The notes under the pieces: generated by a model
What the model was told of the DNA's origin: nothing
Database searches by the model: none
The model's input: only the letters and a program-made list of their open reading frames with translations
IMG/VR virus record: IMGVR_UViG_3300020438_000333
Coordinates: 1-21,202 of that record
DNA: 21,202 nucleotides
Strand: one strand, 5' to 3'
Source of the DNA: a virus
Shown: positions 11,823-18,159 of the stretch, piece after piece
How the letters are laid out: the number at the start of each line of letters is the position of its first letter
How positions within the stretch are numbered: the stretch's first letter is position 1
Program-made: the position numbers and the translations under genes

Positions 11823-14800
11823 TTACTTGATACGAATGATATAGAAGAGACCCATGTAAGGAGGAAGGTTTCTATTAGTTCCAGATTGACCATTGGCGAC
11901 GATCGCAACATTATGCCCGTGTGAACCAGCATTGCCCATGTTATGTCCATGATTAGGAGTATTGGCAACATTACCACCATGACTGTGATTTCCAGCTGTT
12001 TGCGTATCACCGTGATTGTGATTTGCTTGATCTGGAATATTATGAGTATGGTTGGCTGCGTTGGCAATGTTGTGTCTGTGCTGACCACCACCAGGAATAT
12101 TATGACGGTGATTACCAGCGTTGTTTACACCGTGTCTATGGTTTCCGTTATAACTGGTGCTTGCGTTCTGACGGTCAGTTCTAGAAGATCTAGAGTTTCT
12201 ATTACCATATTCAGCCTGGTTGTTTCTTCTCTGATAAGTATGTCTATGAGCACCACCATTATTTGTGCTGTGACCATGTTGCCCTTCGTTACCAGTTTCA
12301 CCGTGTCCGTGGTTGCCTACGTTACCAGTTTCAGCGTGGCCGTGACCACCTTGCCCACCAGTTTCACCACCGTGAGTATGTTCACCAGCAGAAGGAGTTT
12401 CATGCCCGTGAGCAGCTTGATTTGGAATCTCATGACCGTGAGTACCACCTGCAACCACATTATGAACATGGTTTGGTTGATTACTGACGTTAGTATTATG
12501 ACCGTGTGAGATAGTAACAGAATCTTTTGTACCGCCAGTTGCACCTCGATTATAAAGATTACCAGCGGCAATTCCTATTCTATTTCTTAAATCAGGAAGT
12601 AAGAATGTAGTTCCAGATGGATTTGCACCGTATGGGAACGAGAGTCCACCATTTGTTAGGTTGGCATATAGATCAGCATAAGCTGACTGACTTAGACTTG
12701 AACCATCACAGAGATGCCAGTATTCATTATTGGTAATGAAGGATGATGTACCAGCCCACTGCACAATACCGCCAATAGGTGGTAGGTTGGGAACAATAAG
12801 TTGGTCAGCAACAATAGTTCCAGTAACGTCCATGTCACCCTCAACTCTGGTTAAACCAGAGGCAGCCTTCAGAGTTAGGTTCTCACTGTTTTGTGATTCA
12901 ATTCTTGCTGTGCTAGAACCAGTACCAACTAAAATATCGTGAGCGTCAATACCAAGGAGAGCATCAATTTGTCCACCAAAAGTACCAACACCAGAAACAT
13001 TTAGAGAACCAGTTATGGAAGCACTTCCACTAGAACTAAATCTTCCAGTGACTTCTAGATTTGCATCAACTTTAGTATTGCCAGTAATATTGACAACATT
13101 ATTGACTCTTAGTGGACCATCAAACTGAGACAATAGTGTCTTAGATGGACCACCCTCGACAAGTAATCTCTGTCTAACAGTAACTTCATCGAAGATAACA
13201 GATAGAACTGAAGTATCTTCACCTCTAATTGATGGAATTGGTGCATCAAACGTTGTTTCTTCACCAGTAGATGGGTTGATAATCTTGTTACCAATGAAGA
13301 AGTCACCATCATTATTCATGGCGGTGTATACAACGACACCACCAGATCTCTTCTGGGATTGTGTTAGGAACTCTTCTCTTCCAGTTAGTGTAATATTTTG
13401 GACCTGAGGTAGACCAGTTGAGTAGTTACCAGGACCATAACCTAGATATTCAAAAGTATGACCAGAACCTCTTAGAATTGAAGGTCTACGAAGTTCAACA
13501 CCTCTAATATTGATTCTCCTAACTCTTGAACCCGATTGATGACTTGCAGTTTGAGAAGCTACATATCCTCTGATTACGGTAAGTTCATTGTTAGAAGATC
13601 CAGATAGGATTGAGTCTGCGATTCTCATGATCTCAGATCCAACCTGAATATAAGATCCGATTGGGAATCTCTCCGCAGTTCCTATACCAGAGTTTGAAAG
13701 TTGTAGAATAATTTTGTTATCTAATTCTGCACTTCCTAGATCATTACCAAGAATTGCATCATCATGTAAGAAGAGGTTTGTTACTCTAGAACCAATAGAT
13801 TCAGTATCAGCATCAATTGATCCACCTTTTGCATCATAGATTGTTGGTAGTATGAATCTTGGTGCTGTTTGTGTAACAGGAGTTGATCCAGCAACAGTGA
13901 ATGTAAGAATACCAACTCTTTCTAGAACAGTAAATCCACTGAAACTATTGTTGTTAGTATCAACGATATTGAAACTACCACCAGCAACTAATCCATGTGC
14001 TTCATTTGTTTGAATCGTTTGAACATTTGCAACAATTGCACTAACAGTCTTAATACCAATAGAGCGGCCACAATCAACTAGATATTGATCATTGACAGGA
14101 TTTGGATCACCTGAAGTTACAGCGAAGGAAACTTTATTGCTTGCTGGAGTTGCAAGAACACGATAGGCGTTTGTTGCAGTGCTACCAATACCAGTTATTT
14201 GAACTGAATTGTTGACGAAAGTAGAGATACCAGCAGTTGTAACTGTGATTTCAGCACCAGTAAATCCATCAAGATCTAAAGTTTCTGCACCATAACCAGA
14301 ACCAGGATTAATTATTTGAACATTCTCTACAGCACCACCTGATCCAACAGTGACTCTAGATGTTGCACCATCCCAGTTGGAAGTACCATCATTCATCAAC
14401 TTGACGTTGTAGTAATCACCTTCAGTGAATCCACTGCCACCAGTTAATGTTGCATAAGTTGCAATACCAGAGAAACCATGTGGACGATCTAAAGTTACAG
14501 TTACAATACCAACAACATCATTTCTTTCAAAACCAATAACTGTTCTACCGAATCCAATAACTCTAGAAATTTTATCAATACTCTCTCTAGTTACGCTATT
14601 TTCTGGATCATCAATTGCAACATCACCAATTGGTGATCTCTTTGCAAAAGACTTAGCCGCTAATGGGTTTGCAAGAACATTATCTCTATCTAACTGAGGA
14701 TAATATTTCTCAATGTTAGGTAGATACTTTAGGTTATCAAATTCTTCACTGATTTGGTTATCGGCACAAAGAACGTTGAAGTGATAGATACCATCACTAA

Positions 14801-17696
14801 TACCAGGATTATGCTTTTGAATTACTTCAGATCTGTATAGTGAAATATTCTTATTGTTATCAACTCTCTGGTATCTTGCCATGAGTTGAGTTCTGGTGTT
14901 CATGTCAGATGTGAAATCACCAGTTGATCTACCAATATTATTAATATCAGTAGTACCATATGTAAAAGTCAGATCATCAATGACTCCAGTAACTGTAAAG
15001 GTGCCATTAAAGCCACTCTTCGCAATACCAGCAGTGTTTGTTGTACTCTGTACGTCAATAATTTTAACTACATCACCAGTAAATAGTTCATGTGGTTGAT
15101 CAACTCTAATTGTAACTGTTGAACCACTTGCGGCACAAGTAGAAATATATCTTGGATTTCTATCGAAGTCAAAATCATTTACATCAATAGAAGAAATAGT
15201 AAAGTCCTGATCAGTTCTACTTGATGTGTTATTACTATCCTGTAGAATAAATCCGTTTACTGGATCTCTACCGATCGTTGATTCTTTTGGTACAAAATAT
15301 CTTAGTTTATAAACTTTATCACCAATAGATCTGTTATCAGAAAGTCTCTTGATAAATGTTTCACTGGTTTGAGCACCAATACCTGTTACACCTCTAGAGA
15401 CAATCTCAGTGAAAATACTATTGCCTTCCTTACAATGAATAAACCAGTTGTTCTGATTTGGATCAAATAGTACGGGACATCCGATCTCGTTTGCAGCTTT
15501 ATCTGATACGCGACTTTCAACTCTTAGACCAGTTCCACCATAAACTGTAATTGCTTCTCCTCTAAGTGCATCACTGGAAGTTGAAGCGACACGGAATAGA
15601 GCAAGGTTAATACCATCTACGATAGCATAATATACTCTATCTTCCGTTAAATTCTCTGGTAAATCACCATCTTCACTTATAACACGAACCTTCTCACCAG
15701 TTACAAGATTATGATTAACCTGACAATTAAATCTACCCTCTGAATCTAATCCAACAATTTTAGTAATTCTTTCTTTAGATCCTTGGCCAGTTGCAATCGT
15801 GGTTGCTGCACCGATTTTATTATCGGTAATTAAAATCGGTGCAGAATATGCAGTTGAACCAGCGCCACTAGTAAAATTAACAAATAGTTCATCATTTTCT
15901 CTGGCACCAATACGATAACCTTGAGAAATAATTGCAGGTGGGTTATCTTGATCTGTAAATCCAAATAGGTAGAGATGACTATTAATACCTACTTGCTTTG
16001 TTTTATCAACATCAATAGTGAATAGGTCTATATTAGATTCACCTTGTGGAACCGTTTGTGGTGCAATAATACCAGTAACGTATCCCTGGTCATCCTTTGT
16101 AAATGCCTCGGCCTTAAATCCATCAGATATTAAAGCGATCTGTCCAAAGTTGGAGTTAGAGTTAGTAATAGAAGCATCACCACCAGACTCACAAAGGAAA
16201 TGACCATTAAATCCAATAGCAAACACAGACACAACCTGAATGATTGAATCATTCACCATCTTAATGTGTGAAGTCTCCCATCCTTTACGATAAACTGCTC
16301 TACTGTCTAGGTGATAAACAGTATTAGAGTTTGTAGAACTAGATTCCGTTGCTAATTGAGAACCAGTTACTTTAGTGATGGAAATACCATCATATGTTCT
16401 AGATACTGGATTATACTTAACGAAAGCACGGTCATCTTTTTGTAGTGATACGGCCGTAAACTGTGCCACAACCATTGACTTAAAGCCAGAGGCAGTTGCA
16501 CCATCAGCCAGCATACCATTCATGCCGAAAACGGATCTGAGAGACACGTTAAAGACGTATGGTGATGCACCAGTAACAGTATCAGTTTCGATCGTTACAG
16601 TGGCACCAGAGACATTTCCAGTGGCAAGCAGAGTGGTTTGTGCATCTGCTAGTAGATATCCAAATGTAGTTGCATCTGTAACTGAAGTAACGAATGTTGA
16701 AACATTATAATCAGCAGGCGTCACACCTCTAATCTTAACTGGTGTACCAACTGTTAGATTATGTGGATCATTTGTTTCAACAGTAATCAAAGTGGATGGT
16801 GTAACACCATCACCTGATTTAATCGTCTTGATTGCAATTGGATCTGCTTGGAACGCACCAACGATTTCCCATTCAACTCTACTCTTAGAGAATCCTAGTG
16901 GTTGATCTGGGAACTTCTGATCAATATTTCTACCAGATGCTTCATTAAAAGCATTTGATATTTTACTATAATACATGTCAAGGTCAGTTAGACCTGTACC
17001 TTCAACGATATTGACACCATCAGCAAAGCCAAAACAAGTTAGTTTGTGGTGAGAGAATGTTGGTGCTGATTTATTAATGACCGAGAAATCTACAGGGTCT
17101 GTATAGACCTGAGAATTCAAATCTCCATCAAAGAAAGTAAAGTCTCTAAAGTAACAAGTACCAGTTAGACGGATTACAGCACTTTCTGGAGCTGAGTCAT
17201 CTGTTGGGTTTGGAACATATAGTGGTTTAATTTTGGTTTTTCTTAAGTCAAAACCAACAATAGCAGTACCTCTAGGAAGAACAACGCCACCTCTGTGGTC
17301 GTTAAACTTATAGAGCATATTATCTTCGACACCCAAATCGAAGACTGAAGATAATGATAGGGTTAATATCGATTGAGCGAGAGTTTCTGTACCAGCTGGA
17401 GAGATTGCTTTTGCAGTACCATTATCATCTTTAATTCTAAATCCTGGTCTATTATCAATAAAGTGAACACCAGGAAACAGTAGAATCGTAGTTCTATCAA
17501 AGAGATCGTTATCGTTTCCTCTTACATAGGAAAATCTCGCAGATTCTAGAAGTGCTCTCTGAATAGTTTTGAAGGGTTGAGAGAGTGAATTACCCTGATT
17601 TTCTATACTATCAGTGGCACCGATATCGTTGGGATTCACATATAGAATCTTACCCTCGGTGTTCTTAATAAAATTCTGGAGTTTACTAAGAGGCAT
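11823..17696 (-). CDS. Giant virion structural / receptor-binding fibre protein with collar domain and HxH tip, 1957 aa
   Basis: The largest gene in the window. The N-terminus (KILYVNPNDIGATDS, then a segment resembling a right-handed beta-helix start) is of a type I recall in very large structural proteins of T4-like cyanophages. A long beta-rich middle with many IGSGF/VTG-type turns follows. Residues about 1510-1640 are collagen-free Val/Ser/Thr/Gly beta repeats. Residues about 1641-1713 form a tail-collar domain (IGGIVQWAGTSSF, YWHLCDGSSLS, FLLPDLRNRIGIAAGN). From 1731 to 1928 it carries 17 HxH motifs, ending with the conserved PPYMGLFYIIRIK tail. The collar plus HxH pattern is that of the T4 gp37-type receptor-binding tip. 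No good ribosome site precedes ATG 17696; a late-type box lies 34 bases upstream. Confidence 0.85.
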   Translation of the reverse strand: MPLSKLQNFIKNTEGKILYVNPNDIGATDSIENQGNSLSQPFKTIQRALLESARFSYVRGNDNDLFDRTTILLFPGVHFIDNRPGFRIKDDNGTAKAISPAGTETLAQSILTLSLSSVFDLGVEDNMLYKFNDHRGGVVLPRGTAIVGFDLRKTKIKPLYVPNPTDDSAPESAVIRLTGTCYFRDFTFFDGDLNSQVYTDPVDFSVINKSAPTFSHHKLTCFGFADGVNIVEGTGLTDLDMYYSKISNAFNEASGRNIDQKFPDQPLGFSKSRVEWEIVGAFQADPIAIKTIKSGDGVTPSTLITVETNDPHNLTVGTPVKIRGVTPADYNVSTFVTSVTDATTFGYLLADAQTTLLATGNVSGATVTIETDTVTGASPYVFNVSLRSVFGMNGMLADGATASGFKSMVVAQFTAVSLQKDDRAFVKYNPVSRTYDGISITKVTGSQLATESSSTNSNTVYHLDSRAVYRKGWETSHIKMVNDSIIQVVSVFAIGFNGHFLCESGGDASITNSNSNFGQIALISDGFKAEAFTKDDQGYVTGIIAPQTVPQGESNIDLFTIDVDKTKQVGINSHLYLFGFTDQDNPPAIISQGYRIGARENDELFVNFTSGAGSTAYSAPILITDNKIGAATTIATGQGSKERITKIVGLDSEGRFNCQVNHNLVTGEKVRVISEDGDLPENLTEDRVYYAIVDGINLALFRVASTSSDALRGEAITVYGGTGLRVESRVSDKAANEIGCPVLFDPNQNNWFIHCKEGNSIFTEIVSRGVTGIGAQTSETFIKRLSDNRSIGDKVYKLRYFVPKESTIGRDPVNGFILQDSNNTSSRTDQDFTISSIDVNDFDFDRNPRYISTCAASGSTVTIRVDQPHELFTGDVVKIIDVQSTTNTAGIAKSGFNGTFTVTGVIDDLTFTYGTTDINNIGRSTGDFTSDMNTRTQLMARYQRVDNNKNISLYRSEVIQKHNPGISDGIYHFNVLCADNQISEEFDNLKYLPNIEKYYPQLDRDNVLANPLAAKSFAKRSPIGDVAIDDPENSVTRESIDKISRVIGFGRTVIGFERNDVVGIVTVTLDRPHGFSGIATYATLTGGSGFTEGDYYNVKLMNDGTSNWDGATSRVTVGSGGAVENVQIINPGSGYGAETLDLDGFTGAEITVTTAGISTFVNNSVQITGIGSTATNAYRVLATPASNKVSFAVTSGDPNPVNDQYLVDCGRSIGIKTVSAIVANVQTIQTNEAHGLVAGGSFNIVDTNNNSFSGFTVLERVGILTFTVAGSTPVTQTAPRFILPTIYDAKGGSIDADTESIGSRVTNLFLHDDAILGNDLGSAELDNKIILQLSNSGIGTAERFPIGSYIQVGSEIMRIADSILSGSSNNELTVIRGYVASQTASHQSGSRVRRINIRGVELRRPSILRGSGHTFEYLGYGPGNYSTGLPQVQNITLTGREEFLTQSQKRSGGVVVYTAMNNDGDFFIGNKIINPSTGEETTFDAPIPSIRGEDTSVLSVIFDEVTVRQRLLVEGGPSKTLLSQFDGPLRVNNVVNITGNTKVDANLEVTGRFSSSGSASITGSLNVSGVGTFGGQIDALLGIDAHDILVGTGSSTARIESQNSENLTLKAASGLTRVEGDMDVTGTIVADQLIVPNLPPIGGIVQWAGTSSFITNNEYWHLCDGSSLSQSAYADLYANLTNGGLSFPYGANPSGTTFLLPDLRNRIGIAAGNLYNRGATGGTKDSVTISHGHNTNVSNQPNHVHNVVAGGTHGHEIPNQAAHGHETPSAGEHTHGGETGGQGGHGHAETGNVGNHGHGETGNEGQHGHSTNNGGAHRHTYQRRNNQAEYGNRNSRSSRTDRQNASTSYNGNHRHGVNNAGNHRHNIPGGGQHRHNIANAANHTHNIPDQANHNHGDTQTAGNHSHGGNVANTPNHGHNMGNAGSHGHNVAIVANGQSGTNRNLPPYMGLFYIIRIK
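11913..12506 (-). repeat. Coding array of 17 HxH motifs
   Basis: Inside the 1957-residue gene, residues 1731-1928 contain 17 His-x-His motifs. Most are spaced 10-12 residues apart (for example GNHRHNIPGGGQHRHNIAN). One 36-residue interval, rich in Arg, Asn and Ser, splits the array into nine and eight motifs. In T4 gp37, HxH motifs from three chains coordinate iron ions along the needle (established for T4); here the array is much longer. Confidence 0.9.
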
Positions 17697-17701
17697 GGAT
17701 A

Positions 17702-17745
17702 TAAAAGTCGCTAGCTTTGCATTATGATATATTTAGCGACTTTTA
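17702..17745 (-). terminator. 12-bp perfect inverted repeat ending the tRNA transcript
   Basis: TAAAAGTCGCTA (17702-17713) and its complement (17734-17745) flank a 20-base loop. On the minus strand the 3' arm ends ACTTTTA, a short U run. It follows the two tRNA genes and precedes the giant fibre gene, so it is likely a terminator, though the stem is AT-rich. A late-type promoter box overlaps its 5' arm. Confidence 0.6.
17730..17736 (-). promoter_or_regulatory. Candidate late promoter CTAAATA for the 1957-aa gene
   Basis: CTAAATA (minus strand), in the context GCTAAATATATCATAATG, is 34 bases from the ATG. It sits at the junction of the 5' arm and loop of the inverted repeat 17702-17745. It matches the box upstream of the 814-residue fibre gene. 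Confidence 0.45.
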
Positions 17746-17767: not shown

Positions 17768-17840
17768 TGCTTCCTGAGAGGATCGAACTCTCCTTAGGCA
17801 AATTATGAGTTTGCTGCATTCACCAGATTGCTAAGGAAGC
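17768..17840 (-). tRNA. tRNA-Met elongator or tRNA-Ile2 (CAT)
   Basis: A 73-nt cloverleaf: acceptor GCTTCCT/AGGAAGC, D stem GCA/TGC, anticodon stem GCAAA/TTTGC, loop CTCATAA with anticodon CAT, T arm GAGAG-TTCGATC-CTCTC, discriminator A. The anticodon stem lacks the GGG/CCC pairs of initiators, so it is not tRNA-fMet. It is either elongator Met or the Ile2 species whose C34 becomes lysidine. No CCA is encoded. Three bases separate it from tRNA-Ile. Confidence 0.95.
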
Positions 17841-17843
17841 TAA

Positions 17844-17915
17844 TAGGACTGCTGAGAATTGAACCCAGTTTACCCCGTTATAAGCAGAGAGCATTAACCA
17901 ATATGCGACAGTCCC
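17844..17915 (-). tRNA. tRNA-Ile (TAT)
   Basis: A 72-nt cloverleaf: acceptor GGGACTG/CAGTCCT (one G-T), D stem GCAT/ATGC, anticodon stem CTCTG/CGGGG with two G-T pairs, loop CTTATAA with anticodon TAT, T arm CTGGG-TTCAATT-CTCAG, discriminator A. TAT reads AUA (Ile), normally decoded in bacteria by tRNA-Ile2. The G-T pairs make it slightly weak but complete. Confidence 0.92.
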
Positions 17916-17923
17916 TTAAGCAA

Positions 17924-18109
17924 TCAAATATCACATATAGGTGGTTGATGCTTAAGATATTCGTAAAATGTCATTTTCATTTCTTTCTGAGTCATACCAC
18001 AATGCGCTGCAGCTTCAGGCAAATTCATTGTGCAATAATATAATCCTTCATGTGCTTCAGCGACATTTTCTTTAGTTGTCTTATTTTTTTCAGGTAGATT
18101 ATATTTCAT
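17924..18109 (-). CDS. Small HTH-like hypothetical protein, 61 aa
   Basis: A 61-residue protein. From about residue 28, MNLPEAAAHCGMTQKEMKMT resembles a helix-turn-helix (leu-pro-glu-ala-ala-x-x-x-gly-x-thr-gln), as in many small DNA-binding proteins, and is followed by FYEYLKHQPP. The N-terminus is polar and charged. I recall similar short proteins in cyanophage genomes without assigned role. Its own perfect promoter lies 22 bases upstream, within a block of late structural genes, and tRNA-Ile begins 8 bases after its stop. A regulatory role is an inference. Confidence 0.65.
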   Translation of the reverse strand: MKYNLPEKNKTTKENVAEAHEGLYYCTMNLPEAAAHCGMTQKEMKMTFYEYLKHQPPICDI

Positions 18110-18130: not shown

Positions 18131-18159
18131 ATTATAAAGGATTATTGATGATGTGTCAA
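18131..18159 (-). promoter_or_regulatory. Perfect-consensus sigma70 promoter for the HTH-tRNA island
   Basis: TTGACA (18154-18159), 17 bases, TATAAT (18131-18136), minus strand. The upstream structural gene's TGA (18156-18158) is inside the -35. It should drive the 61-residue gene and both tRNAs early in infection. Confidence 0.93.

Follow-up and report, generated by a model that had tools for sequence, protein, structure and literature searches.

The window, by which we mean the whole stretch of 21,202 nucleotides analysed here (IMG/VR record IMGVR_UViG_3300020438_000333), is a 21-kb fragment of a T4-like cyanophage. Its kin are the Synechococcus phages S-T4 (Tamkungvirus), Sf-CH5, and Sf-CH8, with which residues 1–100 of its tail fibre share 94–95% identity. 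On the minus strand, a sigma-70 promoter is followed by a 61-aa open reading frame (ORF), tRNA-Ile, tRNA-Met, a hairpin, and the fibre gene, whose ATG lies at 17696. The features of this region are as follows.

18131–18159, minus strand: consensus sigma-70 (early-type) promoter TTGACA-17-TATAAT, matching at 12 of 12 positions (a sequence match only)
17924–18109, minus strand: 61-aa ORF at the head of the cassette, phrog_1920, no assigned function (ORF and phrog match)
17844–17915, minus strand: tRNA-Ile, anticodon tat (ARAGORN; Rfam)
17768–17840, minus strand: tRNA-Met, anticodon cat (called by ARAGORN; below the Rfam tRNA gathering score, which the neighbouring tRNA-Ile passes)
17734–17745, minus strand: transcript-5′ arm TAAAAGTCGCTA, present only in RNA reading in from upstream
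17730–17736, minus strand: T4-type late promoter box CTAAATA, spanning the end of the 5′ arm and part of the loop
17714–17733, minus strand: loop of 20 nt, holding the late start predicted by the spacing rule at about 17724 (±2) and a conserved CATA
17702–17713, minus strand: transcript-3′ arm TAGCGACTTTTA, present in the predicted late RNA too, −6 to −17 of the start codon
17694–17701, minus strand: TATCC spacer and ATG start codon, without a Shine-Dalgarno sequence; TATATCCATG is conserved in the clade
11823–17696, minus strand: giant tail-fibre gene, 1957 aa (phrog_529 tail fibre; Pfam Collar domain)

The promoter faces the small ORF and the tRNA cassette and is directed toward the fibre gene, which suggests that the cassette belongs to the early-type temporal class. 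A perfect TTGACA-17-TATAAT is found in nine of the 22 loci of the hairpin clade (the window and L001–L008), with weaker versions in the rest. Such early-type promoters are not peculiar to hairpin loci, since they occur within 700 nt at 44–50% of the fibre loci of all clades.

Between the tRNA-Ile/tRNA-Met cassette and the fibre gene lies an inverted repeat with arms of 12 nt (17702–17713 and 17734–17745) that are 100% complementary and separated by 20 nt, giving a stem of 12 pairs, four of them G-C. Three bases of CTAAATA (17734–17736) are the last of the 5′ arm, and the other four are the first of the loop. An earlier note on this DNA had described both the perfect repeat after the tRNA island and its overlap with the late box, and both descriptions are accurate. 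According to the published rule for T4-type late promoters, CTAAATA spans −12 to −6 (PMC1524935); the predicted +1 would therefore lie at about 17724, inside the loop, which agrees with the promoter-in-hairpin geometry put forward in the earlier note. The consensus over the aligned loci, G(C/A)TAAATA-NNNCATA, contains CATA, and thus the region expected to carry the late start is itself conserved. The proteins gp55, gp33, and gp45 have been reported in all cyanomyoviruses (PMC2984593).

The window contains two perfect repeats with arms of 12 bp or more and 3–40 nt between them, compared with a mean of 0.03 and a maximum of one in dinucleotide shuffles, and the hairpin fold has a z-score of −2.9. 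CTAAATA by itself is not rare in the window (two found, 4.3 expected). It is informative by its position rather than by rarity, because each of the 186 dereplicated orthologous loci has a TAAATA ending 28–50 nt ahead of the start codon of the fibre, the fixed placement of a T4-type (gp55) late promoter, whereas it occurs in that pre-start stretch in 9% of shuffles. Elsewhere in the window, a perfect 14-bp inverted repeat with arms 41 nt apart lies just 3′ of tRNA-Asp on the minus strand (391–459); a smaller stem is nested within it, and it has no late box. A second 14-bp inverted repeat, likewise perfect, encloses a loop of 11 nt within the fibre coding sequence (15806–15844).

The hairpin clade comprises 22 loci, 12 of them non-redundant, and was compared with 174 loci of other clades. 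A duplex between the sequences upstream and downstream of the box was better than in shuffles (p ≤ 0.05) at 10 of the 12 non-redundant clade loci versus 6 of the 174 others; the weak hairpins of the clade are those of L014 (p = 0.18) and L010 (p = 0.27). The stem letters differ among clade members with pairing retained, as seen in the paired arms of the window (TAAAAGTCGCTA/TAGCGACTTTTA), L011 (TATAAAGTCGCTAA/TTAGCGACTTTATA), S-T4 (ACTTGC/GCAAGT), L016 (AGACTTGC/GCAAGTCT), and Sf-CH8 (GATCTTGC/GCAAGATC). Two pairing registers are present, one using the CTA of the box and the other stopping at its C. When the 3′ parts were exchanged between the 12 clade loci and the average pairing energies compared, own arms gave −19.4 kcal/mol and swapped arms −14.6 kcal/mol (permutation p = 1 × 10−4), these energies being predicted for 37 °C, which is above the growth temperatures of these organisms, and the p-values of this and the other thermodynamic tests being somewhat optimistic because the loci share related sequences. 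With seven representatives the swap gave p = 0.002, and in random sets from other clades the difference was only −1.0. The energy-based swap over all 12 loci was used in place of a per-column arm permutation within stem types, which was not significant with five to six similar sequences each (fractions of 0.15 and 0.5).

The hairpin stays while its upstream neighbour varies, this being tRNA-Met, tRNA-Leu, or, in Sf-CH5 and Sf-CH8, no tRNA. The motif GCTAAATANANCATAAWGCAA occurs in 18 IMG/VR contigs with one match each, 17 of them already known through the fibre gene, and among eight whole phage genomes it is exact only in S-T4 and Sf-CH8. In S-SCSM1 (L058, 2440–2500), tRNA-Ile and tRNA-Leu are followed by ATTCCTAAATAGACCTATAGGAAT ahead of the same fibre gene, with the late box within the 5′ arm of a 7-bp hairpin; this is possibly an independent case.

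The two RNAs expected at the locus differ in how readily the start region would open. The predicted cost of opening positions −18 to +6 has a clade median of 12.5 kcal/mol in read-through RNA versus 3.6 kcal/mol in the predicted late RNA, and in the window the corresponding predictions are 13.5 and 2.3 kcal/mol. The difference amounts to 8.9 in the clade versus 1.0 in other clades (p = 4 × 10−8). If folding is confined to the spacer that follows the tRNA, the difference has a median of 10.0, and L015 is the weakest member with 0.5. In several members, the main or an added helix extends to the conserved TATATCC or to the AUG: in S-T4, GAGGUAU pairs with AUGCCUC, so that the AUG is in a helix, and elsewhere it is partly paired. 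A structure predicted to bury the ribosome landing site is retained throughout the clade.

We consider it fairly probable that the element insulates the late fibre gene from read-through of the tRNA cassette by a translational block of the T4 lysozyme/I-TevI type. Read-through RNA would carry both arms and fold, which would bury the ribosome landing site before the fibre AUG, and little fibre protein would be made. A late sigma factor of the gp55 type would read CTAAATA and RNA would start in the loop; this late RNA, with the 3′ arm only, is predicted to be almost unstructured and would be translated. The repeat, the box, the invariant box position, the co-varying arms, and the change in predicted accessibility are established by sequence and computation, and we infer repression of fibre translation from read-through RNA. 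The insulation of the fibre gene claimed in the earlier note is thereby favoured by the predicted opening costs. Counting against insulation are the lack of a Shine-Dalgarno sequence to hide, the main helix, which in the window ends 5 nt short of the AUG, and the weak members L014, L010, and L015. Insulation is also not essential, since at the fibre start both hairpin and terminator are missing from most of the other cyanophage clades that have an early-type promoter upstream.

The hairpin sorts read-through RNA from locally started RNA rather than strictly early from late RNA. The upstream structural genes are probably late as well, and late read-through from them would fold too, so the switch is perhaps not strictly an early/late one. 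Of the early/late switch envisaged in the earlier note, the separation of read-through from local RNA therefore stands, and the strict temporal division does not.

Alternatively, the main function of the hairpin may be intrinsic termination of the tRNA cassette transcript, with the late promoter in its loop and with late RNA escaping for lack of the 5′ arm; we regard this as doubtful. The stem core GTCGC/GCGAC of the window does have AAAA before it and UUUUAUAU after it, no other terminator is present between the tRNAs and the fibre gene in the window, and in a second clade 30 of 49 loci have the late box of this fibre gene immediately preceded by a canonical terminator. The canonical form of such an arrangement is also found at other genes, in S-T4, Sf-CH8, S-CAM9, S-CAM22, S-SM1, WH25-B, and Sf-FR1. 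However, the hairpin is not the G+C-rich stem with a short loop that characterizes intrinsic terminators, its 20-nt loop being long for one; terminator scans do not call it, and canonical terminators within 70 nt before the box number 0 in the 12 clade loci. The U-rich tail after the stem is restricted to about half of the clade, all GTCGC-stem members (GCGAC-UUUUAUAU in the window), and is absent from S-T4 (AGCGCCCC), Sf-CH8, L010, L012, L014, L015, and L016, yet most of the members without it still have the hairpin. Since the tail is patchy and the accessibility difference is clade-wide, what the clade has conserved is most likely a role in translational insulation. Termination is a possible addition in the sub-clade of the window, where the stem and UUUUAUAU may also stop part of the read-through RNA. 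The earlier note had held that read-through transcripts fold and stop: the folding is borne out by co-variation, and the stop fails as a general mechanism because of the long loop and a tail confined to the GTCGC half.

It is highly unlikely that a protein binds the dyad as an operator covering the late promoter and that no RNA structure is involved. The dyad overlaps the promoter, and T4 offers a precedent in the I-TevI operator over its own late promoter (PMC2988022), but the stem letters and even the register vary between relatives (GTCGC versus CTTGC) while pairing is kept, as expected of a fold and not of a sequence-specific site. There is similarly little chance that the hairpin serves 3′-end processing or stability of the tRNA transcript with no role for the fibre: it lies directly 3′ of a tRNA in most members, but Sf-CH5 and Sf-CH8 possess the strongest hairpin with no tRNA there, and the late box, rather than the tRNA end, marks the centre of the hairpin. 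That an AT-rich late promoter merely coincides with a chance repeat would agree with the lack of an excess of straddling hairpins at late boxes elsewhere in four genomes, but this is the least credible reading and was rejected on the basis of the shuffles (0.03 such repeats expected per window) and of the co-varying arms. A general rule that hairpins straddle cyanophage late boxes was also rejected, the rates in four whole genomes being those of control hexamers.

The exact mechanism of the earlier note, a late box fused to a terminator with the start in the loop, does occur at other genes as a predicted arrangement. In S-T4 and Sf-CH8, the DNA polymerase/primase/mazG operon ends in TAAATA-GAGGC-NNNN-GCCTC-TTTTTT-(0–2 nt)-ATG, in which the final base of the late box is also the first of the terminator stem, and RNA is predicted to start at the first loop base. 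This GAGGC element was located as follows.

L346, 4186–4211 (S-T4 101186–101210), minus strand: GAGGC element
L347, 4074–4099: GAGGC element of Sf-CH8
L348–L373: GAGGC element in IMG/VR contigs

The pattern occurs in 26 IMG/VR contigs, and, with the two isolates included, the genes that follow it are of three kinds, of 375 aa (phrog_13937), 294 aa, and 415 aa (phrog_3060, the downstream gene in Sf-CH8). Other stems are found after psbD in WH25-B (GAGGGT) and in S-CAM22 and S-SM1 (GAGGGG) (L440, L441, and L443), after mazG in S-CAM9 (AGAGGGC, 128673+), and after nrd genes in Sf-FR1 (TACCCCCA, 152906+). In S-CAM9, the annotated start (128889) of the gene that follows the fusion omits an open frame from the ATG abutting the terminator (128703). 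By a strict count, the fusion is present at 7 of 1519 late boxes versus 17 of 26,938 control hexamers in 11 genomes (p = 2 × 10−4), five of which were picked for carrying it; in the six other genomes there are two sites (p = 0.14). Support for the fusion thus comes from its recurrence with altered, still-paired stems rather than from the count. Canonical terminators directly before late boxes are enriched about fourfold to sixfold in the 11 whole genomes, there being 34 sites at which the centre of the terminator loop lies between 30 and 20 nt ahead of the late box, against about eight expected from control hexamers. Fibre loci beginning ATGGG (e.g., L150–L218) often have a canonical terminator directly ahead of the TAAATA box.

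We tentatively propose, as a possibility somewhat short of even, that boundary elements whose late promoter and hairpin have bases in common, with the start falling in or near the loop, arise repeatedly in marine T4-like cyanophages. Such an element would act as a complete terminator at the ends of some operons (DNA polymerase–mazG, psbD, and nrd) and as a hairpin blocking ribosomes at the fibre gene, and would stay as flanking genes swap; if this is true, it would offer early cassettes and late genes a site to plug into. The fibre hairpin would thereby be linked to the cleaner fusion of terminator and late promoter at other genes. Translational insulation of the fibre gene would show how a late gene can hold its schedule beside a hot spot of incoming and outgoing tRNA and early genes. 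It also yields sequence-level predictions, namely late 5′ ends 5–7 nt past CTAAATA, both for the fibre gene and for TAAATAGAGGC. Collectively, the sequence data point to a real gene-timing device of a mostly familiar kind.

In T4, the late promoter of the lysozyme gene e lies within the 5′-strand region of a hairpin, which makes the translation start inaccessible in read-through RNA (McPheeters et al. 1986, via PMC3014915), and the late RNA lacks the 5′ strand of the hairpin (PMC3014915). T4 e, soc, 49, I-TevI, and SegB as well as Aeh1 mobE share this start-hiding hairpin in the long RNA, with a late promoter in its 5′ strand (PMC3014915, PMC2988022). Gene e itself was not found in syn9, S-PM2, P-SSM2, or P-SSM4 (PMC3014915), and a cyanophage case of the T4-type hairpin switch is absent from the reviews PMC3014915 and PMC2988022. 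By prediction, the fibre locus has the traits of the gene e/I-TevI type: a late start between the arms, read-through RNA folding over the initiation region, and an early-type promoter upstream (a sequence match). As in gene e, the late promoter of the window is in the 5′ side of the hairpin, and the predicted late RNA loses the 5′ arm; unlike gene e, the window concerns a tail-fibre gene in a phage of a cyanobacterial host, without a Shine-Dalgarno sequence, and part of the clade has a U-rich tail. As with I-TevI, soc, 49, SegB, and mobE, a late gene behind an early unit would be shielded by a hairpin overlapping its late promoter. However, that group consists mostly of homing endonucleases and scattered late genes of Escherichia and Aeromonas phages, whereas the window has a major virion gene and an exchangeable tRNA cassette. 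Two other arrangements also resemble the fibre hairpin. At the terminator-before-late-promoter sites common in cyanophages, an upstream transcript is likewise kept apart from a late gene, but the terminator ends ahead of the box, whereas box and hairpin overlap in the window. The box–terminator fusions share with the window a predicted late start in or within 2 nt of the loop and a late RNA without the 5′ arm, and differ from it in being true terminators at other genes, with a short loop and a strong U-tract abutting the ATG. With the fibre locus, the principle known from T4 lysozyme and I-TevI would thus apply to a major virion gene in abundant marine phages as well.
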